This document shows, piece after piece, positions 3,199 to 44,747 of a DNA stretch of 56,269 bases (positions are counted from its first letter, which is position 1; the number at the start of each line of letters is the position of its first letter). Below the pieces are notes generated by a model that saw only the letters and a list, made by a program, of their open reading frames with translations, did not search any database and was not told the DNA's origin. The position numbers were made by a program, and so were the translations under genes. Origin of the DNA: Cytophagaceae bacterium. Its GTDB lineage: Bacteria > Bacteroidota > Bacteroidia > Cytophagales > Spirosomataceae. Where the stretch lies: contig CANLVU010000005.1 of assembly GCA_947494535.1 (NCBI GenBank), positions 1-56,269 on the forward strand, given 5' to 3'.

Positions 3199-4498
3199 AA
3201 TTGTTCTTCTTTCTTGTTTATTTATTTCCTCTATTTCCTTTGGCCAAATCACTGGGGCATATCAACCTGCCTATGATTTTAAACAAATTGATTCGTTAGC
3301 TAAAGTAGAGCAGGGCGGTCCACCAGCCTTTAGTATAGATCCAGGATTAATTCAAGAACGGTTAAAAAAGCTGGAGAATGAGATTCCGTTACATTACAAT
3401 ATTATTACGCACCAGTTTGTGGAAATTTTTGCCTTTCGAAAGGCAAGTTTCACGCAGCGCATGTTAGAGCGCAAGGATATTTATTTCCCAATATATGAGA
3501 AGTATTTAAAGAAATATGGCTTGCCGGATGAATTGAAATACTTGTCTTTGATTGAGTCTGGTTTAGAAAATAAGGCCATTTCTAATAAAGGAGCAGGTGG
3601 ATTGTGGCAATTTATGCCCTATACAGCTAGAGGAGATTTTGGGATGCGGGTGGATCAGTATATTGACGAACGATTCGATGCGGAAAGAGCGACAGATGCT
3701 GCTTGCCAGTATTTAAAGCGATTATATAAAACATTTGGAGATTGGCATCTTGCCTTAGCGGCATACAATACCGGACCTTCTAATGTGAAAAGAGCGATGC
3801 GTCGCTGTGGCGGTTCGAATGATTTTTGGGGTATTTATGCTTGCCTTCCCGCTCAGACAAAAGCTTACGTACCGCAGTTTATTGCGATGACGTATATGAT
3901 GAATTACCATTGGGATCATTCTATTCAGCCAGAGAACTGGGTAATTGATATTCCCAAGGATAGTATTTTAGTCAGTGGTTATTTAAATTTATCTACCTTA
4001 TCACGTTTAACAGGGTTTTCTTTAGATACCCTTAAGCGTCTGAACCCACACATCATAACGCATTTTTTACCTAAAAATGCGCAACAGGTTAAAATTCATA
4101 TACCTAGAAGTCGTTTTTCTTATTTCGAAAAGAATAGATCTCAAATTTTAGATTCAGCCAGGGTAGATTTGACAGCACCTGATTTGATAGAAATAGACAC
4201 TTCTCAGACAGTGGAAGAACCCTCTCCTGTTGCCAGAAGACATACCTATAAAGTTAGGAGTGGAGAAACGCTTTCTAGGGTTGCAAGGAAGTTAGGACTA
4301 AGTACTGCTGAACTAAAGCGAATAAATAGAATCAAAGGTTCTAAATTAAGAAAGGGGCAGGTACTTGTTTATTTCAAGCTAGAGAAAATAAAGCCCTCTC
4401 AAAAATCGAAAAAACTGACTTCAACTAAGAAAAAGAAAAAGGTCACGAAAAAGAAAAAGAAAAAAACCAAATCTAAAAAACGCCGTAAACGCAGGTAA
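3185..4498 (+). CDS. Membrane-bound lytic transglycosylase with LysM domain (MltD-like)
   Basis: Secreted peptidoglycan-cleaving enzyme of 437 residues. It has an N-terminal signal peptide (about residues 1-21, ending SISFGQ). The SLT catalytic domain, about 105-215, contains the glutamate in YLSLIESGLENKAISNKGAG, the GLWQFMPYTAR motif and LALAAYNTGPSNV. One LysM peptidoglycan-binding motif lies at about 355-400 (HTYKVRSGETLSRVARKLG...). After it the protein ends in roughly 35 residues that are almost entirely Lys, Arg, Ser and Thr, a strongly basic tail. The start overlaps gatA by 14 bases; ruvA follows after 2 bases, so gatA, this gene, ruvA and sprA look like one transcript. mltD is plausible as a symbol, but paralogues are usual in this phylum. 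Confidence 0.9.
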   Translation: MIWNRIVLLSCLFISSISFGQITGAYQPAYDFKQIDSLAKVEQGGPPAFSIDPGLIQERLKKLENEIPLHYNIITHQFVEIFAFRKASFTQRMLERKDIYFPIYEKYLKKYGLPDELKYLSLIESGLENKAISNKGAGGLWQFMPYTARGDFGMRVDQYIDERFDAERATDAACQYLKRLYKTFGDWHLALAAYNTGPSNVKRAMRRCGGSNDFWGIYACLPAQTKAYVPQFIAMTYMMNYHWDHSIQPENWVIDIPKDSILVSGYLNLSTLSRLTGFSLDTLKRLNPHIITHFLPKNAQQVKIHIPRSRFSYFEKNRSQILDSARVDLTAPDLIEIDTSQTVEEPSPVARRHTYKVRSGETLSRVARKLGLSTAELKRINRIKGSKLRKGQVLVYFKLEKIKPSQKSKKLTSTKKKKKVTKKKKKKTKSKKRRKRR

Positions 4499-5088: not shown

Positions 5089-8000
5089 TTGAAAGCCGAA
5101 AATAGATATATTTTTTCCTTTTTTTTATTCCTTTTATGGGGATTAGGATTTGTATTGTCTTTTTCGAGTTATTCTCAAGTTGATTCTGTTTCCAAATCAG
5201 GTAAAAAACCTAGATTGACTTTAAAAAAGCCGATTCGTTCGACATCAAAGTCTCCTTTTTCAATTTATTCAAAAAAGCCAAATTCTACTTATTCTTTTGA
5301 GTCAGATAATAAATTGGTTATTCAAAAAGATGCGACTGGCTCCGCCAATGCAACTGATTTTACCACGTATAATCGATTGCAAAACCAGGATGTTAATCGA
5401 AGCTTTTGGCAGACTTATTCTAAAAGTTTAGATGGAAGCAGTAATTTAAAATCGAGAGGATTATTCCCTAAAATTGAATTACCTCCAGCTATTGATCGCA
5501 TTTTTGGTGGAACGGAAGTTTCCTTTAAACCTAATGGTTCCTTATTGCTAGATGTTGGGTATATGGGCCAGTATGTAGATAATCCTGCAATTCCCGTTCA
5601 ATTACGGTATGTGGGTAATCTATTTTTTAATGAGCAAGCACAAATTAACTTTCAAGGAAAGATTGGTGATAAGCTGAACTTAAACGTCAATTTTGATACG
5701 AAGGCTAGTTTTAATTTTCAAAACCAATTAAAACTTAATTGGAGGACACAGGAAGAAGATATTCTACAAAATATTGAAGTTGGAAACACTTCCTGGACCT
5801 TGAATTCTCAATTGATCCCTGGAGTACAGAATTTGTTTGGTATAAAAACTTTGTTACGTTTCGGTGCGCTTGATATGACTGTCGTGGCTGCTCAGCAGCG
5901 ATCTAAGCAGGATTGTATTATGTTAAAGGGTGGAACTCAAGGAAAGAATTTTGAAGTAAGGGTAGATCAATACGATGAAAATCGTCACTTTTTCTTATCG
6001 TCCTATTTTAGGAATAATTATGAACGGGCATTAAAGAATTTGCCTGTAATTTCTAGTGGAATTACGGTAACTAGGGTGGAGGTATATGTGACCAATCGTA
6101 CACAGAGCACCGAGACACTTCGTAATTTAGTTTCATTGTATGATTTAGGGGAAGCTAGCCCTTATAACAATACTAATCCTATATTTCAACCTGTCAATCC
6201 GACTAGTCCGGTGGATAATAAGGCAAATGGGATGTATGCCAAACTAGTATCTGATCCTAACTTGAGGGAGTCTAATGAGGTGACAGATCGTTTAGAATCT
6301 ACTTATAATCTAAAACGTGGTACTGATTTTGATGTATTAAAAGGAGCAAAACGCTTATCGGAAAGGGAGTTTAAATTCAATTCTCAATTAGGGTATATTT
6401 CCTTGGTAGCCCCCATACGTAATGATGAGGTTTTGGCCGTATCATATGAGTATACTTTAAACGGCAGAAAGTATAAAGTGGGGGAGTTAACGGAAGATTA
6501 TCAAGCTAGGCAAGACGACGAGGTGCTGATTTTAAAAATGTTAAAATCAAGTACCATTCGGAATAACTTGAATTCAATTTCAACAGGAAAACCGCATCCG
6601 ATGTGGGATTTAATGATGAAAAATATTTATTCATTAAATACTTCCTCCTTAGCGAAACAAAATTTTCAGTTAAGAATTGTGTACAAAGACGATGCGACAG
6701 GGATAGATAATAGTAATTTGATAGAAGGAACAAATTTTAAAGATATTCCATTAGTTAAAGTTTTAGGCTTAGATAAATTAAATTTTGCAGGTGATCCACA
6801 ACCCGATGGAAACTTTGATTTCGTAGATGATATTACGATTGATGCTAAAAATGGAAAGATTATTTTCCCTGTTTTGGAACCTTTTGGAAATAATTTAAGG
6901 GCTAAGTTTACGGCAAGTGAAAGTAATTTAGTCGAAAAATATGTGTTTGATAAATTGTATTCAGGTACGCAAGTGGATGCTGCCCAAATTACAACTAAAA
7001 ACAAGTTTTTCATTAAAGGTTCATTCCAATCCGGTGCTGGTGGAGATATCTCTTTACCATTTGGAGTAGAAGCAAAATCGGTTACCGTGACGGCTGGAGG
7101 GCAATCATTAGCTGCTGGAACAGATTATATAGTGGAGCCTCAATCTGGTCGAGTAAAGATTATTAATGAGGGTGTTTTTAGTTCCGGAAGAGAGATTAAG
7201 GTGTGTTATGAAAAGCCTGACTTGTTTTCGAATCAAATTAGAACTCTATTAGGTACACGTCTAGATTATAATTTAGGTAAAAATGTACATTTAGGCGCCA
7301 CGATTCAGAATATGTCAGAAAGTCCGCCGGCCTTTTTTCGACGGGTGGCCATGGGGAATGAACCGGTGAATAATACCTTAATTGGGTTTGATGCAAGTAT
7401 CTTGCAAAATTCACAGGGGCTTACAAGGTTTCTAGATAAGTTACCTTTGATTTCAACTAAGGAGACTTCTGTAATTGATTTTCAGGGAGAGTTCGCTAAG
7501 TTAATTCCTAATGTCAATGATCGTGTGCAGGGTAATGCATTTATAGATGATTTTGAGGCTGCTCGGGTCATATATAATTTAAGTTCACAAGCAACACTTT
7601 GGAAACCTGGAGCAACTCCTAAATCCTATGTTTCCACTGGGAATAAATTGGCTACCGGATTTAATCGGGCTAAAATTTCTGCTTATACGGTAGATGCTAG
7701 TATTTATGGTCAAGGAGGTTTTGGTTTGGATGTCCCTGGTTTAGATCCTACCAAGTTAAACGCGTATGCCTATGAAAGAGTAGTAACCCCTAGAGGTCTA
7801 TTTCCCAATAAAGACTTTGCAAATAATATTACCAATTTACCCATTGGCGTTTTAGATGTTGCTTATTTTCCTTCAGAGAGAGGCTTATATAACTTTAACC
7901 CGAATCTTTCCTCTACAGGTTTGCTACCTACTCCAGTTTCTAATTTTGGGGCAATTACCCGGGCTATTAGTTCAGATACTGATTTTGACAATGCAAACGT

Positions 8001-11000
8001 GGAACAATTAGAATTTTGGTTGATGGATCCATTTATAGGTGGAGAAGCTGGGAAAATTCGAGATGGCCTATTTAATAAGAACAATGAGACGGGAGGTAAA
8101 TTAGTTTTCCATCTCGGTGATGTTTCAGAGGATTTTATTCCTGATGGCTATTCTAATTTTGAAAATGGTATTCCAGCAGGCGAAAAAATAACCTCAGGTA
8201 CAACTAAGAATATTGAAAAAACAGATTGGGGATTAGCTCCATCAAGACAGTTTGTTATCAATGCATTTGATAATTCGGCTGGTAGAGAAAAGCAGGATAT
8301 CGGTTTAGATGGTTTGCCTAATAAAGCAGATGATGCCACTGCATTAACGGAATCTACTCATTTTAAAGCCTATTTAGATCAGATAAAAACGCGTGTTTCA
8401 GATCCTTTAGCCTTATCTAACATTCAAAATGATCCAGCAGGAGATGATTTTGAATTTTATTTAAATCAGAAATTTAATGGCACCGAATCCTTAATCCAAC
8501 GTTATAAGAGTTACTTAGGGATGGAAAACAATAGTCCTACCACAGATAATCCTTCAAATACGAGTTTCACCGAGGCAAATAGTATGTTGCCGGATAGAGA
8601 GGATTTGAACAATGATAATACGGTAAATGATAGTGAGGCCTATTTTGAATATGAAATTGATCTAAAGCCTAATAGCCTGCAAATTGGCAATGGTTTTGTG
8701 GTAGATAAAATTACTGAAGGTGGCGTTAACTGGTATCTTTTCCGTGTACCTATAAAAGATAAACGTATTTATAAGACTCCTGCTGGGGAAATTAATTCGT
8801 TTAAATCAATTCGTTTTATGCGTATGGTTTTGAAAGATTTTCGGGAACCGGTTGTATTAAGATTTGCCCAATTACAATTGTCAGGATTTAGTTATCGAAA
8901 GTTTATTGGTGAATTAGATAAACGTAGTGGACAAGATTTGCCTGAGCCATATGATGCTAAATTTCGAGTATCAAGTGTGAATATTGAAGAAAATGGACCA
9001 GCAAATAAAGGAGAGACAGCTATTCCTTATGTTGTTCCCCCTGGATTCGTCAGGGATCAGGATATTACGACCATTAATAACGCTCGATTGAATGAACAAT
9101 CGATGAGCCTTTGCGTTGATAATTTGCGTGCTGGCGATGCAAGAGCGGTATTTAAAAATACACTTTTTGATTTTATTAATTATAAGCGCTTAAAGATGTT
9201 TGTCTCGATGCAAAGTCCGGACGCGATTAGTGGTCAAGTTAGCGCCTTCTTGCGTATTGGTACTGATTTGACAGATAATTATTATGAAATAGAAAATACG
9301 GGTTTAATGCAAACTCAGAAGGGCCAAAGTTTGGACACGGAAATTTGGCCATTGGAGAATGAATTTGATATTGAGTTTGATTTAGTAAAGCAAGTGAAGA
9401 TAGAGCGAGATAAACAAGGTAAGAGCTTAAATGACCGTTTTACGATGGTCATTACAAGTTCTACTGGAAAGACTTATAAAATTACGGTGATGGGTAGGCC
9501 AGATCAAAGTGCTACGATGGTCACTATGATAGGAGTTCGGAATACGAGTACTACCAATAAATCATTCTGTATATGGGTGAATGAATTGCGCGCCTCTGGT
9601 TTCGATCAGACTTCAGGGGAGGCTGCAATTGGTAAGTTAGCGATAAAACTGGCTGACTTAGGAACGATTCAAATGAATGGTAGTTTTAAGAATTACGGAT
9701 TTGGAGGAGTTCAAGCTAAAATATCAGAGCGTAGTAGAGAGAATAATTTAGAGTATGGAATAACAGCAAATTTAAATTTAGAAAAGCTATTGCCTAAAAA
9801 TTGGGGTTTAAAGATTCCTTTCTTTATTACCTACGACCGAAGAAATATTTCGCCACAGTTTGATCCATTTGATCCTGACATCTTCCTGTCTAATTCAATT
9901 CAGAAGTTTAATTCAGAATCTAAAAAGAATTCCTATTTAACCATGGTGGAAGATAATACGGAACGTAAAGGTTTTAATTTTTCTAATGTTAAAAAGAATC
10001 GGGGAGCTCAGTCTAAGAATTCTCATCCTTGGGATTTTTCGAATTTTACTTTCTCCTATGCATTTTCCGAAATGTTAAGGACTAGTCCGCTCATTGCAGA
10101 ATACACACAATTAAGTCATAAAGGAAGTATTTTATATGCCTATTCAACCTCGGCTCGCTATATAGAACCTTTCAAGAAGGCATCATTCGATTTGATCAAG
10201 GATTTTAATTTGAATTTAGTGCCTTCCTCTTTATTAGTGCGCTTAGATATGGATCGCAGTTTTATTAAAACTCAGTTGAGAAATTCGGAATTTACTACGG
10301 TGGGTGTAGCACCTCAATTTGAAAAATATTGGTTCTTTAATCGACAATACGCTTTGAACTGGAATTTGACAAAAAGTATGGTTCTGAATTATAATGCCCA
10401 AGTTAATGCCATTATTGATGAACCCATCGGGGATTTAGATACGCAGGAAAAGAGGGATTCCGTAATGATTAGCTTGAGAGCCTTAGGTCGTGCCAAAAGT
10501 TTTGACCAACAAGCGGGTATGGTTTGGCGTCTACCCTTACAGAAGTCTGTTTTAACGGATTGGATGAATGCGGATTATACGCATCGTGTAGGTTATAACT
10601 ATTTTGCCAATTCATTTGATATTCGAGATTCTTTAGGATTACCTTTTGGAAACATTATCAAAAATACGCGCGAACAAGCAATTAATGGGAAAGTTGATTT
10701 TGTTGCCTTATATAATCGGATTAAGGCTTTGCGGTGGGCAAATACTCCCCGCACTTTTGGTAAAAATATAGCCAGAAATCCAGGTGATGAGGAAGATATC
10801 GTCATTCCAAGCAAATCTGCTATTAAAGCTGTGACACGTTTATTATTAACCTTACGTGGAATTCAAGTCAACTATTCTATTAATGAGTCTACTACCTTAC
10901 CAGGATTCATGCCTGATCCCGGTAATCTAGGAATGAATCGTGTTAATTCAGCTCCTGGATTTGACTTTATCAGCGGAGGGCAAGATGATGGTATCCGATT

Positions 11001-12186
11001 TAAGGCTGCAGAAAATGGTTGGTTGACCCGAAGTACCGTACAAAATACACCATTTACTCAGTTAAGGAATCAAAAATTGACCTATTCTACCCAATTAGAA
11101 CCTACGAAAGATTTACGTATCCAGGTGGATGGTAATTACAATCGAGGGGATAATTACCAAGAATTCTTTCGACCTGATCAAGCAGGAGGGCCATTTAAAT
11201 CCCAGAGCCCGATTCGCTCAGGTAATTATTCGATGTCATTTTTATCCTTTATGACAGCATTCTCTAATCCAGAAGCCGTTTTCGAAGAATTTAGATCCAA
11301 TCGTTCGGTTTTAATTTCAAGATTAAATAAAGCAAAATCAACCGAGGTGGGTACCTATAATCAAAACTCTCAAGATGTATTAATTCCTGCATTCTTCGCA
11401 GCTTATTCTGGTGTTTCCGCGAATGATGTGAAGTTTTCGCCTTTCTATGATATTCCATTGCCTAACTGGAAAGTAGATTACAATGGGTTGAATTTGCTTC
11501 CTGGAATTAAGAATAAATTCTCTTCATTTACGATAACTCATATGTATTCAAGTACCTATAATGTGGGGAATTTCGTGTCTTCGTTAGAGTATGGTCAGTT
11601 TGCTACGGATTATATGAGTTTGTCCTTAAATAGTTTATTGTATCCTCTTTCTTCTCGTTTCGACCCCGAAACGAATACCTTAATTCCGGTGTATGTGATG
11701 AGTACGATCTCATTTGTAGAGCGTTTCTCGCCTTTAGTTGGAGTTAATGCAGTGACTAAGAGTAAAATATCTTTGCGTTTAGAATACAATCAGGATCGTA
11801 ACGTCGGCTTAAATTTAGCGAACTCACAGGTTGCTGAATTAGCGAATAAGGACTTCACGGTGGCTGTTGGATTTACTAAATCCAATATGTTAATTCCATT
11901 CAAGATTAATGGTAGATCTGTTCGTTTGCCTAATGATTTGCGATTTAATATGAATTTAACTATCCGAGATACGCGTACTTTACAACGAAAATTGGACGCA
12001 GAAACGATTGTTACGCAAGGTTTTGTGAATTTTCAATTCCGTCCTCAATTAAGTTATAATGTAAATAATAAATTAACAGTGACGGCTTATTTCGATAAGA
12101 TGATGAATAATCCATTGGTATCTAATTCTTTCTATCGATCTACAGTGGCAGGAGGTTTTCAAATACGTTATAGTTTAAGTGAATAA
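5089..12186 (+). CDS. sprA: T9SS outer-membrane translocon / gliding motility protein SprA
   Basis: Giant outer-membrane beta-barrel that forms the protein-conducting channel of the type IX secretion system; needed for gliding in Flavobacterium johnsoniae and called Sov in Porphyromonas. The 2365-residue length is close to known SprA proteins (about 2400). There is an N-terminal hydrophobic signal segment (about residues 8-29, ending SFSSYSQ), then a Ser/Lys-rich linker, long alternating beta-strand sequence, and a C terminus ending in an aromatic strand (GGFQIRYSLSE) typical of outer-membrane barrels. Translation must start at the TTG at 5089, immediately after the ruvA stop: no ATG precedes the signal peptide, so expression is probably coupled to ruvA. 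Upstream lie gatA, a lytic transglycosylase and ruvA; gcvH follows behind its own promoter. Confidence 0.95.
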   Translation: MKAENRYIFSFFLFLLWGLGFVLSFSSYSQVDSVSKSGKKPRLTLKKPIRSTSKSPFSIYSKKPNSTYSFESDNKLVIQKDATGSANATDFTTYNRLQNQDVNRSFWQTYSKSLDGSSNLKSRGLFPKIELPPAIDRIFGGTEVSFKPNGSLLLDVGYMGQYVDNPAIPVQLRYVGNLFFNEQAQINFQGKIGDKLNLNVNFDTKASFNFQNQLKLNWRTQEEDILQNIEVGNTSWTLNSQLIPGVQNLFGIKTLLRFGALDMTVVAAQQRSKQDCIMLKGGTQGKNFEVRVDQYDENRHFFLSSYFRNNYERALKNLPVISSGITVTRVEVYVTNRTQSTETLRNLVSLYDLGEASPYNNTNPIFQPVNPTSPVDNKANGMYAKLVSDPNLRESNEVTDRLESTYNLKRGTDFDVLKGAKRLSEREFKFNSQLGYISLVAPIRNDEVLAVSYEYTLNGRKYKVGELTEDYQARQDDEVLILKMLKSSTIRNNLNSISTGKPHPMWDLMMKNIYSLNTSSLAKQNFQLRIVYKDDATGIDNSNLIEGTNFKDIPLVKVLGLDKLNFAGDPQPDGNFDFVDDITIDAKNGKIIFPVLEPFGNNLRAKFTASESNLVEKYVFDKLYSGTQVDAAQITTKNKFFIKGSFQSGAGGDISLPFGVEAKSVTVTAGGQSLAAGTDYIVEPQSGRVKIINEGVFSSGREIKVCYEKPDLFSNQIRTLLGTRLDYNLGKNVHLGATIQNMSESPPAFFRRVAMGNEPVNNTLIGFDASILQNSQGLTRFLDKLPLISTKETSVIDFQGEFAKLIPNVNDRVQGNAFIDDFEAARVIYNLSSQATLWKPGATPKSYVSTGNKLATGFNRAKISAYTVDASIYGQGGFGLDVPGLDPTKLNAYAYERVVTPRGLFPNKDFANNITNLPIGVLDVAYFPSERGLYNFNPNLSSTGLLPTPVSNFGAITRAISSDTDFDNANVEQLEFWLMDPFIGGEAGKIRDGLFNKNNETGGKLVFHLGDVSEDFIPDGYSNFENGIPAGEKITSGTTKNIEKTDWGLAPSRQFVINAFDNSAGREKQDIGLDGLPNKADDATALTESTHFKAYLDQIKTRVSDPLALSNIQNDPAGDDFEFYLNQKFNGTESLIQRYKSYLGMENNSPTTDNPSNTSFTEANSMLPDREDLNNDNTVNDSEAYFEYEIDLKPNSLQIGNGFVVDKITEGGVNWYLFRVPIKDKRIYKTPAGEINSFKSIRFMRMVLKDFREPVVLRFAQLQLSGFSYRKFIGELDKRSGQDLPEPYDAKFRVSSVNIEENGPANKGETAIPYVVPPGFVRDQDITTINNARLNEQSMSLCVDNLRAGDARAVFKNTLFDFINYKRLKMFVSMQSPDAISGQVSAFLRIGTDLTDNYYEIENTGLMQTQKGQSLDTEIWPLENEFDIEFDLVKQVKIERDKQGKSLNDRFTMVITSSTGKTYKITVMGRPDQSATMVTMIGVRNTSTTNKSFCIWVNELRASGFDQTSGEAAIGKLAIKLADLGTIQMNGSFKNYGFGGVQAKISERSRENNLEYGITANLNLEKLLPKNWGLKIPFFITYDRRNISPQFDPFDPDIFLSNSIQKFNSESKKNSYLTMVEDNTERKGFNFSNVKKNRGAQSKNSHPWDFSNFTFSYAFSEMLRTSPLIAEYTQLSHKGSILYAYSTSARYIEPFKKASFDLIKDFNLNLVPSSLLVRLDMDRSFIKTQLRNSEFTTVGVAPQFEKYWFFNRQYALNWNLTKSMVLNYNAQVNAIIDEPIGDLDTQEKRDSVMISLRALGRAKSFDQQAGMVWRLPLQKSVLTDWMNADYTHRVGYNYFANSFDIRDSLGLPFGNIIKNTREQAINGKVDFVALYNRIKALRWANTPRTFGKNIARNPGDEEDIVIPSKSAIKAVTRLLLTLRGIQVNYSINESTTLPGFMPDPGNLGMNRVNSAPGFDFISGGQDDGIRFKAAENGWLTRSTVQNTPFTQLRNQKLTYSTQLEPTKDLRIQVDGNYNRGDNYQEFFRPDQAGGPFKSQSPIRSGNYSMSFLSFMTAFSNPEAVFEEFRSNRSVLISRLNKAKSTEVGTYNQNSQDVLIPAFFAAYSGVSANDVKFSPFYDIPLPNWKVDYNGLNLLPGIKNKFSSFTITHMYSSTYNVGNFVSSLEYGQFATDYMSLSLNSLLYPLSSRFDPETNTLIPVYVMSTISFVERFSPLVGVNAVTKSKISLRLEYNQDRNVGLNLANSQVAELANKDFTVAVGFTKSNMLIPFKINGRSVRLPNDLRFNMNLTIRDTRTLQRKLDAETIVTQGFVNFQFRPQLSYNVNNKLTVTAYFDKMMNNPLVSNSFYRSTVAGGFQIRYSLSE

Positions 12187-32817: not shown

Positions 32818-34914
32818 ATGAAACACCTTTTATTAATACTCTTCACTTTTTCTTTATTTGCCCAAAGTCCTAAAGAGAAAATTCAAGTCACAGATTTATT
32901 AAAGATCAAAACAGGTGGAAAACCTAGTCTAGCTCCTAAAGGAAATCAATTTATATATACTGTTACATCGATTGTAGATGATTCTGATAAGAAGAATAAT
33001 TTTGTGTACCAGACACATTTGTATCTAGGAAACCTTCAAACAGGTGAATCGAGAGTCTTAACTTCAGGTAAGAATTCTATTTCATCTCCCACTTGGAGTC
33101 CAGATGGAAGTAAAATTGCCTTTTCTAGAGATATGGGTTCTAAATCCCAGGTGTATGTATTGGATTTAGCAGGAGGGGAGCCTCAGGCGATTACAAACTT
33201 ACCTTTCTCGGTTTCCAATCCAGTTTGGTCTGCATCGGGGCAGGAAATTTATTTCCAATCCTCTTTTACTGTTAGCCAATTTTTAATGGATTCCGTCTAT
33301 AACAAGAAAGGTTTAGTGCCTTCATGGACTTTGGAAAAACCATTGCTTACTGGTACTTCGAAGAAATCAAAGGCAAATCCTAACGGAAGTATCGACGAAG
33401 TACGCGCTTATTTAACCCAGAATGAGGTAGACAAAAAAGCTAAGGTTATCAATCGTTTAAATTTCCAAGAAGAGAGTACCACCACTTCTGAGATTTCGTT
33501 ACCAGCCTATTTTAAAACCAATTTATCTGGTAAAACCGTTTTATTGAATAACCCTTTCACACGTTGGTCAGATGTGGAAATAGCTTCTAATGGTATGTAT
33601 GCTGTTATTCCAGCGGATTCATTGGCACATCCTGACAAGGTGTTGGATTCTTATATTGGATTAGGGTCTAACGTGATCTACCAAAAAGTGGGTCACCGCA
33701 TGTCTAATCTATCTTTATCACCTTCAGAAAAATGGGTAGCCTTTCAAGAGACGAAGTCGACAGGTGTACAAAATGGATCTTTGCAAATAATTTCCACATC
33801 GAGTTCTAGTTCTATTATTAAGGTCCCACTTGATCGGGTTATTACACAAGTTAAGTGGTCATCCGATGAGACTAAGCTGTATTTTACGGCTCAAAATCAG
33901 GGAGGAGCACCCCTTTATTCATTTGACATAGCCACTAAACAGGTGAAGCAAATAACAGATAATAACACGGGGATTTTGGGATTTGATGTCACAAACTCGG
34001 GGTTCATCTATGCCAAAACAAGCATTGAGAATCCATCCGAAATTTACCAGCAAATGGCTGATTCCGTGAGAACCTTCACTTCTCTAAATACTGGCTGGTT
34101 AGCTTCGAAAAGTATTGTTCGTCCTACTAAACATACCTTTACTAATTCCAAAGGCTTAAAAGTGGATTATTGGGTAATGAAACCAACTGATTTTGAAGCT
34201 GGAAAGAAATATCCAGTTGTACTAGAGATTCACGGCGGTCCTTCTGCCATGTGGGGTACAGGAGAAGCAAGTATGTGGCATGAGTTTCAGTATTACGCTG
34301 CCAAAGGAATGGGTATCGTATATGCGAATCCTCGCGGATCTGGTGGTTACGGTTCGGAATTCTTAGCAGCTAATGTGAAAGATTGGGGTGCTGGTCCTAC
34401 GTCCGATGTGATGAAAGCATTAGATCTGACCATTGCTGAAGGTTGGGCAGATACGACACAGTTAGCTGTGACAGGTGGATCCTATGCAGGTTACCTAGTC
34501 ACTTGGATTGTTGGTCATACAAATCGATTTAAAGTCGCTTGCTCGCAAAGAGGTGTTTATGAGCTTTCAACCTTTATGGGAGAAGGAAATGCCTGGCGTT
34601 TAGTGCCAAATTATTTTGGAGGCTATCCATGGGAAAAAGCAACAAAAGCAATTTTAGATCGCGAATCACCTTATACGTATGTGCAAAACATCAAAACCCC
34701 TTTGCTAATTTTCCATGGAGAAAATGATTTGCGTACAGGTGTGATTCAAAGTGAAATGCTGTACAAAAGCTTAAAAGTATTAGGTCGTGACGTTGAATAT
34801 GTTCGTCACCCGGGTGGAACACATGAATTAACGCGTTCAGGTAATAATCGCCAGCGCATCGATCAGATGTTGAGGACGTATGAGTTCTTTGCTAGGTATT
34901 TGAAAATTCAGTAG
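32818..34914 (+). CDS. S9 family (prolyl oligopeptidase-like) peptidase
   Basis: A 698-residue exported serine peptidase. The signal peptide is short (MKHLLLILFTFSLFAQS). Residues about 30-420 form a TolB/PD40-like beta-propeller with repeated motifs such as PTWSPDGSKIAFSRD. The C-terminal alpha/beta-hydrolase domain carries the S9 triad: Ser555 in GGSYAGYLV, Asp637 in GENDLRTG and His669 in GGTHEL. The architecture fits the acylaminoacyl/dipeptidyl peptidase group that acts on short peptides in the periplasm. Transcribed alone: terminators lie on both sides, and a convergent peptidase gene follows. Confidence 0.93.
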   Translation: MKHLLLILFTFSLFAQSPKEKIQVTDLLKIKTGGKPSLAPKGNQFIYTVTSIVDDSDKKNNFVYQTHLYLGNLQTGESRVLTSGKNSISSPTWSPDGSKIAFSRDMGSKSQVYVLDLAGGEPQAITNLPFSVSNPVWSASGQEIYFQSSFTVSQFLMDSVYNKKGLVPSWTLEKPLLTGTSKKSKANPNGSIDEVRAYLTQNEVDKKAKVINRLNFQEESTTTSEISLPAYFKTNLSGKTVLLNNPFTRWSDVEIASNGMYAVIPADSLAHPDKVLDSYIGLGSNVIYQKVGHRMSNLSLSPSEKWVAFQETKSTGVQNGSLQIISTSSSSSIIKVPLDRVITQVKWSSDETKLYFTAQNQGGAPLYSFDIATKQVKQITDNNTGILGFDVTNSGFIYAKTSIENPSEIYQQMADSVRTFTSLNTGWLASKSIVRPTKHTFTNSKGLKVDYWVMKPTDFEAGKKYPVVLEIHGGPSAMWGTGEASMWHEFQYYAAKGMGIVYANPRGSGGYGSEFLAANVKDWGAGPTSDVMKALDLTIAEGWADTTQLAVTGGSYAGYLVTWIVGHTNRFKVACSQRGVYELSTFMGEGNAWRLVPNYFGGYPWEKATKAILDRESPYTYVQNIKTPLLIFHGENDLRTGVIQSEMLYKSLKVLGRDVEYVRHPGGTHELTRSGNNRQRIDQMLRTYEFFARYLKIQ

Positions 34915-34917
34915 GCA

Positions 34918-34996
34918 ATAGATTGTAGATTAGAGAGTATAGAGTATAGATAAAATTAACCATCTCTACTCTTTACTCTATTATCTCTAATCTGAT
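34918..34996. repeat. Degenerate 7-bp-period repeat forming an inverted pair
   Basis: Directly after the S9 peptidase stop, about five 7-base units of the type AGATTAG, AGAGTAT run to about 34952. After a short AT spacer, about five units of the opposite type (ATCTCTA, CTCTTTA, CTCTATT) run to about 34995. The two halves are roughly complementary, so the region can fold into a long imperfect hairpin. The same 7-base period occurs at 41601, also between convergent genes. Function unknown. Confidence 0.6.
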
Positions 34997-35060
34997 ATTT
35001 TAATTAAAACACGGTTACAAATTATTGCGTAGCACAATTTTAACCGTGTTTAATTAAAAT
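34997..35060. terminator. Long palindrome, probable bidirectional terminator
   Basis: Arms of 20-21 bases (34997-35017 and 35041-35060) are complementary apart from one unpaired base, with a 23-base loop. Each arm ends in an A/T-rich flank that gives a U run in both directions. The stop codon of the M42 peptidase gene (35050-35052) lies inside the right arm. The position between convergent S9 and M42 genes fits a shared terminator. Confidence 0.7.
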
Positions 35061-36114
35061 AGCGCCAATCCTCCCCACCCTTCACCTTCAACAAGCATTG
35101 ATATATCAGGTCGATCACCGCATTCATATCTTCTTTAGCGATCGTTTCTACTGTGGTGTGCATATACTTCAAAGGCAAGCTGATTAGCGCAGAAGCAACA
35201 CCTTCCGTTGCATACGCAAAAGAATCAGTGTCAGTACCCGTAGAGCGAGATACCGCTTGTCTTTGGAAATCAATCTTGTTTTCTGTAGCCACATCGATGA
35301 TGAAATCACGCACATTATTTTGTACGGCAGGACCGTAGCAAATAACTGGACCCTTACCACAAGCCATATCGCCTTGTGTTTTTTTATTATACATAGGTGA
35401 TTGGGTGTCATGCGTAACATCGGTAATAAATGCCAAATCTGGTTTTAATCGACGAACAATCATCTCTGCCCCGCGTAAACCTATTTCCTCTTGAACGGAG
35501 TTGACCACATATAAGGTATAGGGAAGGGTTATTTTGTTCTCTTTCAATCTTCTAGCTACTTCAGCGATCATATAACCGCCTATTCGGTTATCTAACGCAC
35601 GACCTACCAAGTATTTCCCATTTAATTCCATTAATCCATCTTCGAAGGTAACAACCGTGCCTACATGGATGCCCATCTCTTCCACTTCCTTTTTATTCGA
35701 AGCGCCACAATCGATGAAGATATCTGCGATGGCTGGGGCTTTGTCTTTGGCAATATCACGCACATGAATTGCTGGCCATCCAAAAATACCTTTTACTACT
35801 TTATCTTTTGTGTGAATATTTGCTCGCATAGACGGTGCAATTAGCGCATCCGAACCTCCATTACGACGTAAGAATAAATAACCGTTATCGTCGATGTAAT
35901 TCACAAACCAAGAAATTTCATCTGCATGCGCCTCGATGACTACTTTGTAGGGTTGACCCGGATTGATGACTCCTACAGCGGTTCCATAGGTATCAATAAT
36001 CTTTTCGTCGATAAAAGGTTGAATATAATCTAACCAAATTTTTTGTCCACTTGCCTCAAATCCAGTGGGTGAGGCGTTATTTAAATAGGAGTATAAAAAT
36101 TCGTTTGCGTTCAT
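35050..36114 (-). CDS. M42 family metallo-aminopeptidase
   Basis: A 354-residue cytosolic binuclear-metal aminopeptidase (glutamyl aminopeptidase/endoglucanase M family), which trims peptides. The metal and catalytic residues are visible: His in VIEAHADEISWFV, Asp in GRALDNRIGGYM, the paired Glu in VQEEIGLRGAE, Asp in FITDVTHDTQ and the distal His in MHTTVET. Length matches the family. A CAAATTTA (minus-strand TAAATTTG, a -7 match) lies at 36144-36151, 30 bases before the start. It converges on the S9 peptidase. Confidence 0.94.
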   Translation of the reverse strand: MNANEFLYSYLNNASPTGFEASGQKIWLDYIQPFIDEKIIDTYGTAVGVINPGQPYKVVIEAHADEISWFVNYIDDNGYLFLRRNGGSDALIAPSMRANIHTKDKVVKGIFGWPAIHVRDIAKDKAPAIADIFIDCGASNKKEVEEMGIHVGTVVTFEDGLMELNGKYLVGRALDNRIGGYMIAEVARRLKENKITLPYTLYVVNSVQEEIGLRGAEMIVRRLKPDLAFITDVTHDTQSPMYNKKTQGDMACGKGPVICYGPAVQNNVRDFIIDVATENKIDFQRQAVSRSTGTDTDSFAYATEGVASALISLPLKYMHTTVETIAKEDMNAVIDLIYQCLLKVKGGEDWRYFN

Positions 36115-40496: not shown

Positions 40497-41600
40497 ATGG
40501 GATTAACTTGTGGAATTGTCGGATTGCCTAATGTAGGTAAATCAACTTTATTTAGTGCTATTTCTTCTAATAAGGCAGAAGCAGCAAATTATCCTTTTTG
40601 TACGATTGAGCCCAATGTGGGGATAGTTACAGTGCCGGATGATCGCTTAAATATACTAGCTGAATTAGTGAAGCCTAACCGCATTTTACCTACTGTTATT
40701 GAATTTACTGATATAGCTGGGTTAGTAAAGGGTGCTTCGACTGGAGCTGGTTTGGGTAACAAATTCTTAGCTAATATCCGTGAGGTGGATGCCATTATTA
40801 ACGTAGTTCGCTGTTTTGAAGATGAAAATATTGTTCACGTGGAAGGTCGTGTGAATCCTGTAAGTGATAAAGAAATTATTGATTTAGAATTACAGATCAA
40901 GGATTTGGATTCTGTAGATAAGAAAATTTCCAAAACAGAAAGAGCGGCTAAAGCAGGAGATGCAAAGGCAAAAGCTGAATTGGCAGCTCTACAACAGTTT
41001 AAAAAAACATTAGAAGAAGGTAAATCAGCCCGTACAGTAGTGATGGATGATGAACTTCGTCAAACAGCTATAGGTGATTTATATCTGTTAACTGATAAGC
41101 CGGTGATTTATGTGGCGAATGTGGATGAAGCGTCTATCGCTGCCGGGGGAAACCAATATGTAGATCAACTGAAAGCAAATGTTGCTTCTGAAAATGCGGA
41201 AGTGGTCGTTGTCTGTGCTGCTTTAGAGGCTCAAATTGCCGAGATGGAAGATTTAGATGATCGTGCTATGTTCTTAGAGGAATATGGTTTGAAAGAATCA
41301 GGTTTAGATAAATTAATTCGCAGTTCTTATCACTTGTTAAATCTAATTACCTATTTCACGGCAGGAGTTCAAGAAGTACGTGCTTGGACCATTCAAAAAG
41401 GATGGAAAGCGCCTGCTGCTGCCGGTGTGATACACACGGACTTTGAGCGTGGATTTATTCGTGCAGAGGTAATTAAATTAGCAGATTATGTTGCTTATAA
41501 AACTGAAGCAGGCTGTAAAGATGCTGGTAAATTAAGTGTTGAAGGTAAGGAGTATTTGGTGCAGGATGGAGACATTATGCACTTCCGCTTTAACGTCTAA
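40497..41600 (+). CDS. ychF: Redox-regulated ATPase YchF (Obg family)
   Basis: Universally conserved P-loop protein of the TRAFAC class that prefers ATP over GTP and associates with ribosomes. The 367-residue product has G1 GLPNVGKSTLFSAI, G3 DIAGLVKGASTGAGLG, a coiled-coil insertion (about 130-170), the altered G4 NVDE in YVANVDEAS (consistent with ATP use), and a C-terminal TGS-like domain (VRAWTIQKGWKAPAAAGVIH, FERGFIRAEV). Length is typical (363-370). A 7-bp-period repeat begins directly after the stop codon. Confidence 0.97.
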   Translation: MGLTCGIVGLPNVGKSTLFSAISSNKAEAANYPFCTIEPNVGIVTVPDDRLNILAELVKPNRILPTVIEFTDIAGLVKGASTGAGLGNKFLANIREVDAIINVVRCFEDENIVHVEGRVNPVSDKEIIDLELQIKDLDSVDKKISKTERAAKAGDAKAKAELAALQQFKKTLEEGKSARTVVMDDELRQTAIGDLYLLTDKPVIYVANVDEASIAAGGNQYVDQLKANVASENAEVVVVCAALEAQIAEMEDLDDRAMFLEEYGLKESGLDKLIRSSYHLLNLITYFTAGVQEVRAWTIQKGWKAPAAAGVIHTDFERGFIRAEVIKLADYVAYKTEAGCKDAGKLSVEGKEYLVQDGDIMHFRFNV

Positions 41601-41665
41601 GTTCTATCGACTAGAGACTAGTGACTATCGACTAGCGACTACCCACTCTCTACTGCCCACTGACC
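41601..41665. repeat. Degenerate 7-bp tandem repeat between ychF and the T9SS plug gene
   Basis: About nine consecutive 7-base units in register, of the form nnACTnn: for example CGACTAG, AGACTAG, TGACTAT, CGACTAC, CCACTCT, CTACTGC. The array starts right after the ychF stop and runs into the convergent plug gene, covering its stop codon (41650-41652) and last codons. Unlike the array at 34918, there is no complementary half. Confidence 0.65.
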
Positions 41666-42876
41666 ACCGTCGTATACCCCACCAGCGCATCATAACTAGT
41701 GCCTGGTTTTTGATAATAAATGAGAAGCTCATAGAGGTTTTCGGTTTGAGCGTAATTTCCCTCTAATGTTGAATTAGGGGGATTTTTGCTTTTAAAGTGA
41801 TAGTTATAAACCCCTTGCTTTAAAATTTGTGTGTTTTCAAGTAATCCATTCGAAGGATTATGCTGCATTTTTGAAGAAAGAGAATAGTTGTTAAATCCTC
41901 CTGCCATATAGATTTCCTCCAAATTATCTTTTGGTTTCAAGCGAAAAGTACATTGAACATAATCTGCCTGCAGCGGATTTTCTCGATTTTCGTAAGATTC
42001 TATTATGTAGGAACCATTCAGATCATTTCGTTGAACATAAGCATACATTCCTTGCGGCTGTTCTACTTGGGTATTAATTAAGTTAATTTTCTCTCCGGTA
42101 ATAATTTGGTCGACAAATGAAAGTTTCTGTTGCGAGCTACGCAAATCTATTAGCCTAAACTCATTAGAACCAGGAAATGCATTTTCTTGTCCAAAGAATG
42201 GAAAGGAGAGACTATTTTCTTGAAGATTAAATTGTCCTGTGGGAAGATGATGTAAAAGATTGTCAGATTGGTGGTTTTGGCGAATCTGTATACTTAATTG
42301 TTCATCGCCCGCATAGTTTAAACTAGGGGGTATATTTAATTTGAAATCGATGGTTTGGTGGCTAGAGCGTAAGGCATTGGTTTTGGCATAAGAAAAAGAC
42401 GTTAGCGCTTTAACTAGTTGTTCTGCCACTGAGAATCGTATACAAAGAACCGTATCTTTCTTATTTCGTTTATTGTAGACCATTGCAACGTAATTCCCAC
42501 TTACTTTTAGACTAGGAATGGGCACGGTATAATGCAAGTAAGGGACCTTAGTTCCTAGTGATGATTCCGGGTTTCTCAGCGGAATATCATTAAAATCTTC
42601 TAAATATTCGATCTCTGATAAAGGCGAAGGCTTCCAGTTAGCCTGACAATGAATTATTCTGAAATAGTATGAAGGATAATTAAGCCCCAAATCATCAAAT
42701 TTTAGGGAAGATGAATTTTCTGACCCTAGGTTTAGGACAACATTAGGATGAATGTACTTGTCCGCTGTTTGCAGATAAGCTGTTTGAATATTCGAATGGT
42801 GTATTCGCGATTCTATTTGGGAAAAAATAGTAAAAGGTAGACCTAGAAATAGCAGAAGCGAGATATAGGTCTTCAT
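41650..42876 (-). CDS. Type IX secretion system plug protein (DUF5103)
   Basis: A 408-residue exported protein of the family first listed as DUF5103 and now named for the T9SS plug, which closes the periplasmic side of the SprA channel when no cargo is engaged. It has a signal peptide (MKTYISLLLFLGLPFTIFSQ) and an N-terminal beta domain with YYFRIIHCQANWKPSPLSEIEY and LEDFNDIPL, the family hallmark. Further beta domains follow, including AGGFNNYSLSSKMQHN near the C terminus. I use the ATG at 42876; an upstream in-frame start at 42900 would precede the signal peptide and overlap the ABC-F gene. The final codons lie in a 7-bp repeat. It is unlinked to sprA, about 30 kb away. Confidence 0.85.
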   Translation of the reverse strand: MKTYISLLLFLGLPFTIFSQIESRIHHSNIQTAYLQTADKYIHPNVVLNLGSENSSSLKFDDLGLNYPSYYFRIIHCQANWKPSPLSEIEYLEDFNDIPLRNPESSLGTKVPYLHYTVPIPSLKVSGNYVAMVYNKRNKKDTVLCIRFSVAEQLVKALTSFSYAKTNALRSSHQTIDFKLNIPPSLNYAGDEQLSIQIRQNHQSDNLLHHLPTGQFNLQENSLSFPFFGQENAFPGSNEFRLIDLRSSQQKLSFVDQIITGEKINLINTQVEQPQGMYAYVQRNDLNGSYIIESYENRENPLQADYVQCTFRLKPKDNLEEIYMAGGFNNYSLSSKMQHNPSNGLLENTQILKQGVYNYHFKSKNPPNSTLEGNYAQTENLYELLIYYQKPGTSYDALVGYTTVVSGQ

Positions 42877-42881
42877 AAGGA

Positions 42882-44747
42882 TTAAATTAATGCTTCCCAA
42901 GCAGCAGTGGTTGTTTCTAAATTTTTCTTTTCAACTGCTAAAGATATTTCCAATTGCTTTAAACCTGTATAATCCGCTTTGTTGGCTAAATCCACCATTT
43001 GCGCCTCTATGGCAGCAATACCATTTTCGATTTCCATAATCTCTGCTTCCAGCTTTTCAATTTGCTTGGTTTGATTAGGTGTTTTTGCTTCTACTGGAGC
43101 TAACTCGGGTTTGGCTTTCAAAGCCGCTTTCACAGAAACTGGTTTTGAAGTTGCTCTGGTAGCCATCCAGGTCTCATATTCATCGAAAGAACCCGGGTAT
43201 TCCTTGATTTCATGATCCTCAATGTACCATATTTTATTGGCAATACTACTGACGAAATAGCGGTCGTGGGATACAACAACATAGGTTCCTTCGTATTGTT
43301 GCAACGCCTGAATCAGAATATTTACCGATTGCATATCCAAGTGATTGGTAGGTTCATCGAGTAGAAGGAAATTCGCTTCGGAGATTAATACTTTAGCTAA
43401 AGCCACGCGTGATTTCTCTCCACCAGAAAGGACCTTGATTTTTTTGAAAACTTCTTCTCCGGAGAATAAGAAACAACCCAACACGGAACGTAATTCCATT
43501 TCGGTCTTCGTTGTTCCGGTACCTTTTAATTCCTCTATTAAGGTATTTTCTACGGTTAAACTCTCTAATTGATGCTGCGCAAAGAAGGATTCAATTACAT
43601 TGTGACCAGTTCGTCTTTCGCCTTGGATTTGTTCTGTACCTGAAATGATACGCAATAACGTGGATTTACCCTTCCCGTTTGCACCGATCAAAGCAATTTT
43701 ATCACCGCGGTTAATCGTAGCTGATGTGTTTTTTAAGATTACCTTTTCTCCAAAAGCTTTGGAAATATGTTCTAAAAACAAGATAAATCGACCAGGTTCT
43801 GTTCCAAAGTTGAATTTGAAATTAACTTTCGCTTTCTCATCAATGACATCATCAATGATATCGATTTTATCTAAGGCTTTTACGCGTGATTGAACTTGTC
43901 TGGCTTTAGAAGCTTTTGCTTTAAAACGTTCGATAAAACGCTCTGTTTGGCGAATTTGTGATTGCTGATTCTCAAATGCCCCTTTTTGAATCTCATTTCG
44001 AAGGGCTTTCTCTTCCATATAGAAAGAATAATTACCCGGATAAAGTGTGATTTTTGCTCCTGAAACTTCGGCAATATTTTCAATGGTGCGATCTAGGAAA
44101 TAGCGGTCATGAGAAACCACTACAATAGAACCTTCGTAATCATGAATGTATTTCTCTACCCATTCAATGGATGGCAAGTCCAAGTGGTTAGTGGGCTCAT
44201 CGAGTAGGAGTAAAGCTGGTTTTTGTAATAATAATTTAGCCAGCATCACACGCATTCTCCAACCCCCTGAAAATAATTTTAAAGGACGGTTCAAATCATC
44301 CGTACTAAATCCTAAACCTTCCAAAATCTCTTCGGTACGCGATTGAATCGTATAACCGTCTAAACGTTCAAAATCTTCTTGAAGTTTAGCTAATACATCT
44401 ATGTCTTTGTCTTCATAATTGGTTTCCATTTTATGAAGCACTGCATCAATATCTTTTTGTAATTCTAATTGTTTCTCAAACGCCTGCATGGCCACGTTTA
44501 AAATGCTATCATCCGTTTGGTAAGACAATAGATCTTGATTCAAGAAGCCGATTGTGCAGTCGCCAGACTTGGAGATTGTTCCTCCATCTGGCGTATATTC
44601 TCCTGAAATTAGGCGCAATAAAGTAGATTTACCGGTTCCATTCGCACCGATTAAACCGATTTTAGTCTTAGGCTTGATGTGTAAACTTGCTCCTTCGTAT
44701 AAGGCGCGACTTCCGAAATAGAAGTTTAAATTGGATATTGATAACAT
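42882..44747 (-). CDS. ABC-F family ATPase (translation factor type)
   Basis: A 621-residue soluble protein with two ABC cassettes and no membrane domain. Cassette 1 has Walker A GANGTGKST and signature LFSGGWRMRV; cassette 2 has GANGKGKST and LSGGEKSRVALAK, each with LLLDEPTNHLD. A charged linker of about 80 residues lies between them, with EIQKGAFENQQSQIRQTERF, and a C-terminal coiled coil lies at about 555-621. ABC-F proteins such as EttA, Uup and YheS bind the ribosomal E site; the subgroup cannot be fixed by eye, though the C-terminal coiled coil resembles Uup/YdiF types. Start at ATG 44747; the longer reading from 44774 overlaps the upstream gene. The plug gene follows after 5 bases. 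Confidence 0.9.
   Translation of the reverse strand: MLSISNLNFYFGSRALYEGASLHIKPKTKIGLIGANGTGKSTLLRLISGEYTPDGGTISKSGDCTIGFLNQDLLSYQTDDSILNVAMQAFEKQLELQKDIDAVLHKMETNYEDKDIDVLAKLQEDFERLDGYTIQSRTEEILEGLGFSTDDLNRPLKLFSGGWRMRVMLAKLLLQKPALLLLDEPTNHLDLPSIEWVEKYIHDYEGSIVVVSHDRYFLDRTIENIAEVSGAKITLYPGNYSFYMEEKALRNEIQKGAFENQQSQIRQTERFIERFKAKASKARQVQSRVKALDKIDIIDDVIDEKAKVNFKFNFGTEPGRFILFLEHISKAFGEKVILKNTSATINRGDKIALIGANGKGKSTLLRIISGTEQIQGERRTGHNVIESFFAQHQLESLTVENTLIEELKGTGTTKTEMELRSVLGCFLFSGEEVFKKIKVLSGGEKSRVALAKVLISEANFLLLDEPTNHLDMQSVNILIQALQQYEGTYVVVSHDRYFVSSIANKIWYIEDHEIKEYPGSFDEYETWMATRATSKPVSVKAALKAKPELAPVEAKTPNQTKQIEKLEAEIMEIENGIAAIEAQMVDLANKADYTGLKQLEISLAVEKKNLETTTAAWEALI

Follow-up and report, generated by a model that had tools for sequence, protein, structure and literature searches.

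A heptamer array at the ychF–plug junction of an Aquirufa genome as a probable solo copy of a repeat family tied to S23 elements

A tandem heptamer array lies at position 41601 of a 56,269 nt stretch of DNA from a Cytophagaceae genome (the window), and sequence comparisons indicate that it is probably a solo copy of a dispersed heptamer family derived from S23 elements. In its fullest form, this family consists of an S23/IVP gene between inverted, outward-pointing arrays of a lineage-specific word. As judged from its units, the array at 41601 is a solo array in which the type III words described below dominate. Its tie to S23 type III is supported, although imperfect and correlational. The array and its two flanking genes are:

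41596–41672, + strand: solo heptamer array of ACTNNNN units with no partner arm, located by ACT-spacing count, Tandem Repeats Finder and array scan
40497–41600, + strand: open reading frame that we take to be ychF, an Obg-like GTPase; its stop codon (41598–41600) lies directly before the array
41650–42900, − strand: convergent open reading frame, presumably the T9SS plug gene (the name is from the earlier note); its last codons and stop lie inside the array, and its start codon is uncertain

Eight consecutive ACT trimers were found in register at a spacing of exactly 7 bp between 41610 and 41665, and degenerate units on both sides extended the array to about 41596–41672. This agrees with the earlier note, in which ACT heptamers were described right after the ychF stop and over the stop and last codons of plug. 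The words are ACTAGAG, ACTAGTG, ACTATCG and ACTAGCG, then ACTACCC, ACTCTCT and ACTGCCC. Tandem Repeats Finder, run on the window, reported period 7 at 41604–41641. The self-match of 41601–41665 was 0.69 at lag 7 versus 0.08–0.33 at lags 1–6 and 8–13. When lags 4–12 were compared over the 56 kb, the array was the top self-match window (31/42 at lag 7), and the runners-up scored 29 (lag 6, position 4428) and 28 (lag 7, the array at 34918). The array is one-sided and thus lacks the terminal inverted repeats of transposons and MITEs, and no S23p gene (PF05635/TIGR02436) lies inside it; the full elements of the family, such as the one on contig C2, do have one. Its fold showed nothing unusual on either strand (z +0.32 and +1.04), and a hairpin or insulator at 41601 was rejected on this ground. 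Elsewhere in the window, the + strand holds a very long open reading frame at 5089–12186, with about 2365 codons.

The ychF–plug junction was then compared across relatives. ychF was found in 26 of 30 same-genus genomes, giving 27 junctions together with the window's own, all read by eye. Arrays were present in all eight genomes of the close clade, in which ychF proteins are at least 95% identical, and in none of the other 19 (8/8 vs 0/19). The 19 array-less junctions, where the ends of the two coding regions overlap or are only a short distance apart, include those of the array-rich genomes G011, G012, G022, G031 and G035. Within the close clade, words and unit numbers differ. G008 and G023, whose ychF DNA is 0.960 identical, carry ACTGGAT/ACTGTTT and ACTATCG/ACTAGCG words, respectively, and words at this junction have been replaced between species, not merely lengthened. 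The comparison of orthologous junctions, which the earlier note had proposed, thus revealed turnover of both words and length at a fixed place. The comparison of plug C termini, proposed there as well, showed that the end of plug is recoded by the array: the array-coded tails in the eight genomes are GYTTVVSGQ, GYSSVVSGQ, GYTSLVSIQ, GYTTVVTSR and GYTSLVTSR, versus GYQK..., GYNK... or GFQR... in the nine array-less genomes printed, and the plug stop lies within the array in all eight array-bearing genomes (by eye). On the other hand, the suggestion that the array insulates convergent transcription is not supported, given the ordinary fold and the array-rich relatives without an array here.

The window belongs to an 81% complete MAG (2.03 Mb, 143 contigs), which can be assigned to Aquirufa because its plug gene matches A. 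antheringensis and related Cytophagaceae MAGs. A genome-wide search for the exact four-unit pattern ACTN4ACTN4ACTN4ACT gave 146 matches and the reversed pattern none, upholding the proposal of a dispersed element family; these counts overlap, so that one long array counts many times and long arrays weigh heavily. In 380 kb of this genome, a sample made up of the window and of stretches chosen because arrays were present, 40 self-match windows passed at lag 7 vs 0–2 at eight other lags. For G007, where the sample was 460 kb and included an evenly spaced 400 kb, the corresponding counts were 13 vs 0–3. Across 36 same-genus genomes, four-unit matches numbered 46–284 in 16, 1–13 in 6 and none in 14. 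This ACT count measures the word, because the array-poor genomes hold other heptamers (TTACCTA, TGTAGAA, TACCATT), and the reading of array-rich and array-poor as presence and absence was rejected. The dominant words in the window's genome are ACTAGCG, ACTATCG and ACTAGTG, and the same words are common to unrelated loci. Like other dispersed heptamer repeats, the 7-bp units stand in tandem in many intergenic regions of this genome, and none of the dominant words is that of a described family of the STRR, TAACTGA or GGGAATC type. ACT conservation within units was 97–100%, partly by construction because the arrays were found by ACT. A low-threshold scan returned 52 arrays and 38 matches in the reversed-sequence control, and it therefore serves only to list arrays. 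Among those listed, L048 (7263–7397) is a higher-order repeat of three 50-bp units, each with CCTCCGG followed by ACT heptamers, and the arrays of L036 (12058–12134) and L041 (9620–9654) lie within called genes and are possibly translated.

The earlier note had further placed such arrays at gene ends, and this held in part. In the evenly spaced 400 kb of G007, 7 of 11 period-7 windows lay between convergent genes, where the background was 54 convergent among 319 intergenic regions; the stricter ACT-only count was weaker (3/6 regions, p 0.065). A pooled enrichment (9/12 regions, p 9e-6) was discarded as evidence because several of its regions had been fetched for the window's own arrays. Genes were called with a codon-usage script, which missed the S23 gene on C2; most of the genomes compared are incomplete MAGs, and arrays break assemblies.

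S23 genes were found to be framed by the same kind of array. The C2 array pair, among the longest and most regular in the window's genome, frames the one PF05635 gene detected there, and the whole element folds strongly (z −19.86, 20 shuffles). The long C27 pair (L039, 9310–9616) is S23-less with a centre of about 100 bp; its arms are very regular, with about 11 ACTATCG units followed by ACTAGCG units. Inverted arms, scored as flank complementarity of at least 15, were present at 57 of 59 Aquirufa S23 loci, the other two being cut by contig ends. In the first set of 31 loci, 30 reached this score (L177 was cut), and their distal windows, where measurable, reached 9–12; in the second set of 28 later-fetched loci, all 27 measurable ones reached at least 20 (L258 was cut). 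Small-gene controls reached 15 in 6 of 264 cases and never 20. Complementary ends around an S23 gene are thus seen in the Aquirufa elements but not in the array at 41601. S23 matches of at least 105 bits, a cut chosen after the scores were seen, occurred in 16/16 array-rich vs 1/14 array-poor genomes among 30 relatives. A tie of S23 to ACT arrays only was rejected, as S23 loci lacking ACT arrays turned out to have arms built from different words. Reading frames without an internal stop were present in 51 of the 58 copies listed, and because most frames are open, some selection on the protein is suggested. The Aquirufa copies that were read lie between protein genes, none inside a 23S rRNA gene, and no rRNA was detected in L051 or L032 by Rfam.

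The word of the arms was paired with the lineage of the S23 gene between them. Sixteen S23 loci adjoin hemE, with engB on the other side where the flanks could be read; 11 of these genes point toward hemE and 5 in the opposite direction. Three types of S23 gene, each with a different word (type I, ACTGnnY; type II, YTYCGGACT; type III, ACTANYG), alternate at this site independent of species. At these loci, flank words followed S23 protein distance (Mantel r 0.834, p 5e-5, n = 16) and not species distance (r −0.095), with a partial correlation between flank words and S23 of r 0.863 (p 1e-4, n = 11). In a test that took in 59 loci, the nearest flank partner from a different genome was an S23 relative of at least 60% identity at 56 of 58 (8.6% expected; misses L172 and L279). 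In some high-identity pairs, both loci lie at one chromosomal site, and this can raise their flank similarity. S23 pairs within one genome showed no flank similarity (mean −0.04), and hemE-site pairs of different type have identities of 0.5–0.7, a bin with mean flank similarity of −0.01 to 0.12. In the second set, all 12 loci having a first-set relative of at least 80% identity bear that relative's word (by eye). Moreover, solo words of the window's genome frame S23 genes elsewhere in the genus: ACTCTCT at L264 and L266; GCTTTAT at L270, L274 and L278; TTTGAAC at L265, L267, L268 and L271; and CACCATT at L269, L276, L277 and L280. The G008 MAG holds two hemE-site versions with matching words, one with S23 type I (L159) and one with type II (L257), and because both occur in one MAG, it is probably a strain mixture with strain-level cassette polymorphism.

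Solo words track the resident S23 type only in part. In 11 of 16 genomes, the S23 type at the hemE site agreed with the dominant solo word, counted genome-wide with three word patterns after removal of the S23 locus (p 0.005 by permutation; raw match with the locus included, 13/16); G006, G012, G027, G030 and G035 were the five mismatches. Type III word counts separated completely, at 65–160 in the five type III genomes vs 0–31 in the eleven others. The closest clade pairs by ychF (G008/G023, G000/G002 and G007/G030) differ in S23 type, and 5 of their 6 word contrasts were as expected. At the ychF–plug junction, the word matched the resident type in 5 of 8 genomes by strict count (p 0.043), with a tie in G013 and misses in G002 and G030. 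The window's genome has one detected S23 gene but several words. At 23 hemE loci of other, mostly array-poor Aquirufa genomes, no S23 match was detected. The hemE start was located in 12 of these S23-free loci, and TTACCTA-type words lay upstream in 11 of the 12; such words frame S23 genes at another site in G004 and G018 (L176, L179). L217 (G025), the sole readable hemE-upstream site without heptamer array or S23 match, is a candidate empty site.

The window contains a further period-7 locus at 34918, with the following features:

34918–34952, − strand: left arm of an S23-less inverted pair, ACTCTAT/AATCTAC-type word
34963–34997, + strand: right arm of the pair, ACTCTTT/ACTCTAT/AATCTGA-type word
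35000–35060, no strand: second, terminator-like hairpin beside the pair, seen by folding
32818–34914, + strand: open reading frame, presumably a prolyl-oligopeptidase-like gene, with its 3′ end facing the pair
35050–36114, − strand: open reading frame that we take to be an M42-type peptidase gene, the convergent partner at this junction

The likeness between this locus and the array at 41601, asserted in the earlier note, is partial. Both arrays are real, have period 7 and lie between convergent genes, but the one at 34918 is an inverted pair of another word whereas that at 41601 is one-sided. The overall word type of the pair is ACTCTAT/ACTCTCT, unlike the array at 41601, and its right-arm word frames S23 genes at L264 (G002) and L266 (G008). 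By their words, the two arrays belong to two different S23 lineages, a distinction missed in the earlier note. The region 34900–35075, comprising the pair and the second hairpin, folds strongly (z −8.55). In relatives, this junction holds ACT-type arrays in G019, G007 and G022 (mixed with other words in the latter two), the window's word in G013, TGTAGAA in G033, a degenerate inverted stretch in G005 and a short hairpin in G010.

The pattern extends beyond Aquirufa. PF05635 was detected in 61 of 80 Bacteroidota genomes, the window's included, vs 0 of 14 control genomes. Among 30 other-Bacteroidota S23 loci, the best-scoring of 30 genomes, proximal flanks gave 0.309, 0.296 and 0.309 at lags 7, 14 and 21, and distal flanks lower values of 0.262, 0.257 and 0.282. 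The stem threshold was reached by 21 of these 30 loci vs 6 of 264 controls, and the 13 printed loci have various words, some of them 8-mers (L187, L197, L205). For plasmids, 16 of 21 records with S23 were fetched (H5, H11, H13, H14 and H16 were left out); 12 of the 16 loci reached the stem threshold and none of the 16 distal windows did. An Azospirillum S23 copy sits inside a 23S rRNA gene with GGACGGA/GGACAGA-like arms. S23 genes also occur within CRISPR-cas neighbourhoods: in Picosynechococcus, one (L248, 1483–1839, NZ_CP016476.1) lies between cas10 and a Cmr3-family gene, and in Pseudanabaena, one (L241, 1489–1848, NZ_CP112875.1) lies between cas6 and cas4.

In the origin that we favor, the S23/IVP four-helix-bundle gene and its outward-pointing arrays would be exchanged as a cassette. 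Through recombination, template switching or an S23-assisted step, the words of these elements would then overwrite older arrays and reach sites that tolerate them, frequently the 3′ ends of genes. The S23 protein may recognise its own word, and an array at a gene end would cost a few codons and gain a new stop, as in plug. We infer the copying of solo arrays from S23 arms, as well as any role of the S23 protein. Counting against this origin are the five genomes whose dominant solo word differs from their S23 type, the strict match of only 5 of 8 at ychF–plug, the solo arrays at S23-free sites and the several words of the window's genome beside its one detected S23 gene. In addition, Xanthomonas heptamers are described in the excerpted text of Rehm et al. 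(PMC4692102) as generally not near insertion sequences or transposable elements, and the comparisons showed no transposition event, target duplication or S23 activity. Passive spread, in which S23-element arms seed solo arrays by recombination, gene conversion or template switching and the protein merely shares the cassette, would explain the link between 41601 and type III as well as an action of the protein would; that link is correlational, like all S23-word links. It fits the S23-free TTACCTA arrays found next to hemE in 11 of the 12 array-poor genomes that could be read and the statement, in an excerpt on Coxiella, that S23p is unlikely to be produced in vivo (PMC4990558), but the open frames of 51 of the 58 listed copies speak against it, and we regard it as possible but doubtful.

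Two further accounts have far less to recommend them. It is highly improbable that the heptamers are microsatellites arising locally by slippage and tolerated at gene ends, with S23 genes as bystanders. Heptamers are over-represented among long simple repeats and slippage has been proposed for them (excerpts of PMC4679880 and PMC4692102); unit numbers vary between species, and slippage may account for array length. The slippage account is already hard to hold for the whole family, since the same words recur at unrelated loci, S23 genes have inverted arms on either side, words track the lineage of S23 instead of the species, and words at one junction were replaced, not just lengthened. Very little credence is likewise given to arrays kept as a functional gene-end module, acting as terminators or separators of convergent transcription or as stops in all three frames, which arise because period 7 shifts the frame by one each unit. 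The favoured convergent junctions, the plug stop inside the array in 8/8 array-bearing genomes (by eye) and the strong fold of the 34918 region would agree with such a module. However, the array at 41601 has no fold, array-rich relatives do without an array at ychF–plug, whether stops result depends on the word, without any need for selection, and the S23 arms beside hemE sit in a divergent promoter region.

The origin from S23 elements would bear on several known repeats, as dispersed heptamer arrays have so far been reported as unexplained. Cyanobacterial STRR sequences are short heptamer arrays dispersed between genes and, by description only, resemble the arrays here. In REP/RAYT systems, a short repeat specific to the lineage flanks a gene as inverted copies and is scattered through intergenic regions as well. 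S23 elements share this combination of a framed gene and a dispersed lineage-specific repeat, but have a four-helix bundle instead of a Y1 transposase, and a heptamer array as the repeat. According to excerpts on the 23S rRNA IVS of Coxiella and others (PMC4990558), the S23p frame lies between complementary ends forming a long stem, as in the Aquirufa elements, in Coxiella GACAGAT heptamers precede it in numbers variable between strains, and S23/IVP proteins are without known function. The Azospirillum copy is likewise inside a 23S rRNA gene with heptamer-like arms, whereas the Aquirufa elements lie between protein genes and have longer arrays as arms, lineage-specific words and dispersed solo arrays. 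The TAACTGA repeats of Beggiatoaceae, Cyanobacteria and five Bacteroidetes (MacGregor, 2015, PMC4679880, as excerpted) are intergenic heptamers with an ACT core, patchy across phyla and with some arrays overlapping gene ends, as here, but they have one fixed word and lie mostly just before start codons; S23 is absent from the text of that paper, and no S23 link is proposed in it. Excerpts of Rehm (2015, PMC4692102) describe GGGAATC and GGGGA(C/T)T heptamers of Xanthomonas and Nostoc with a similar preference near stop codons, and with 186 arrays in X. campestris, including 70 cases of paired opposite arrays; these repeats differ in being discussed as G-quadruplex formers. Calothrix heptanucleotides, which belong with the cyanobacterial STRR sequences, are mentioned there too.

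Each S23 lineage is paired with a heptamer of its own, across several phyla and also within a 23S rRNA gene. This pairing offers a shared explanation for bacterial repeats that have lacked one, and suggests that several of them stem from selfish DNA of a kind so far little recognised. In the open-licence papers searched, as excerpted, no statement of a link between S23 lineage and its own heptamer was found. TRAP is a protein that reads spaced triplets. By analogy, an S23 ring might take up one heptamer core per subunit across a variable spacer and, acting in trans, protect, amplify and spread the word that belongs to it; this is rather unlikely, and if true, it would unite IVS, STRR, TAACTGA and GGGAATC repeats in one superfamily of selfish DNA. 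The one-heptamer-per-subunit arrangement is suggested by the 7-bp period together with the toroidal homopentamer reported, in an excerpt, for a solved S23-family member (PMC4990558). The solved S23 protein 2gsc is XCC0516 of X. campestris, which is host to GGGAATC arrays as well.
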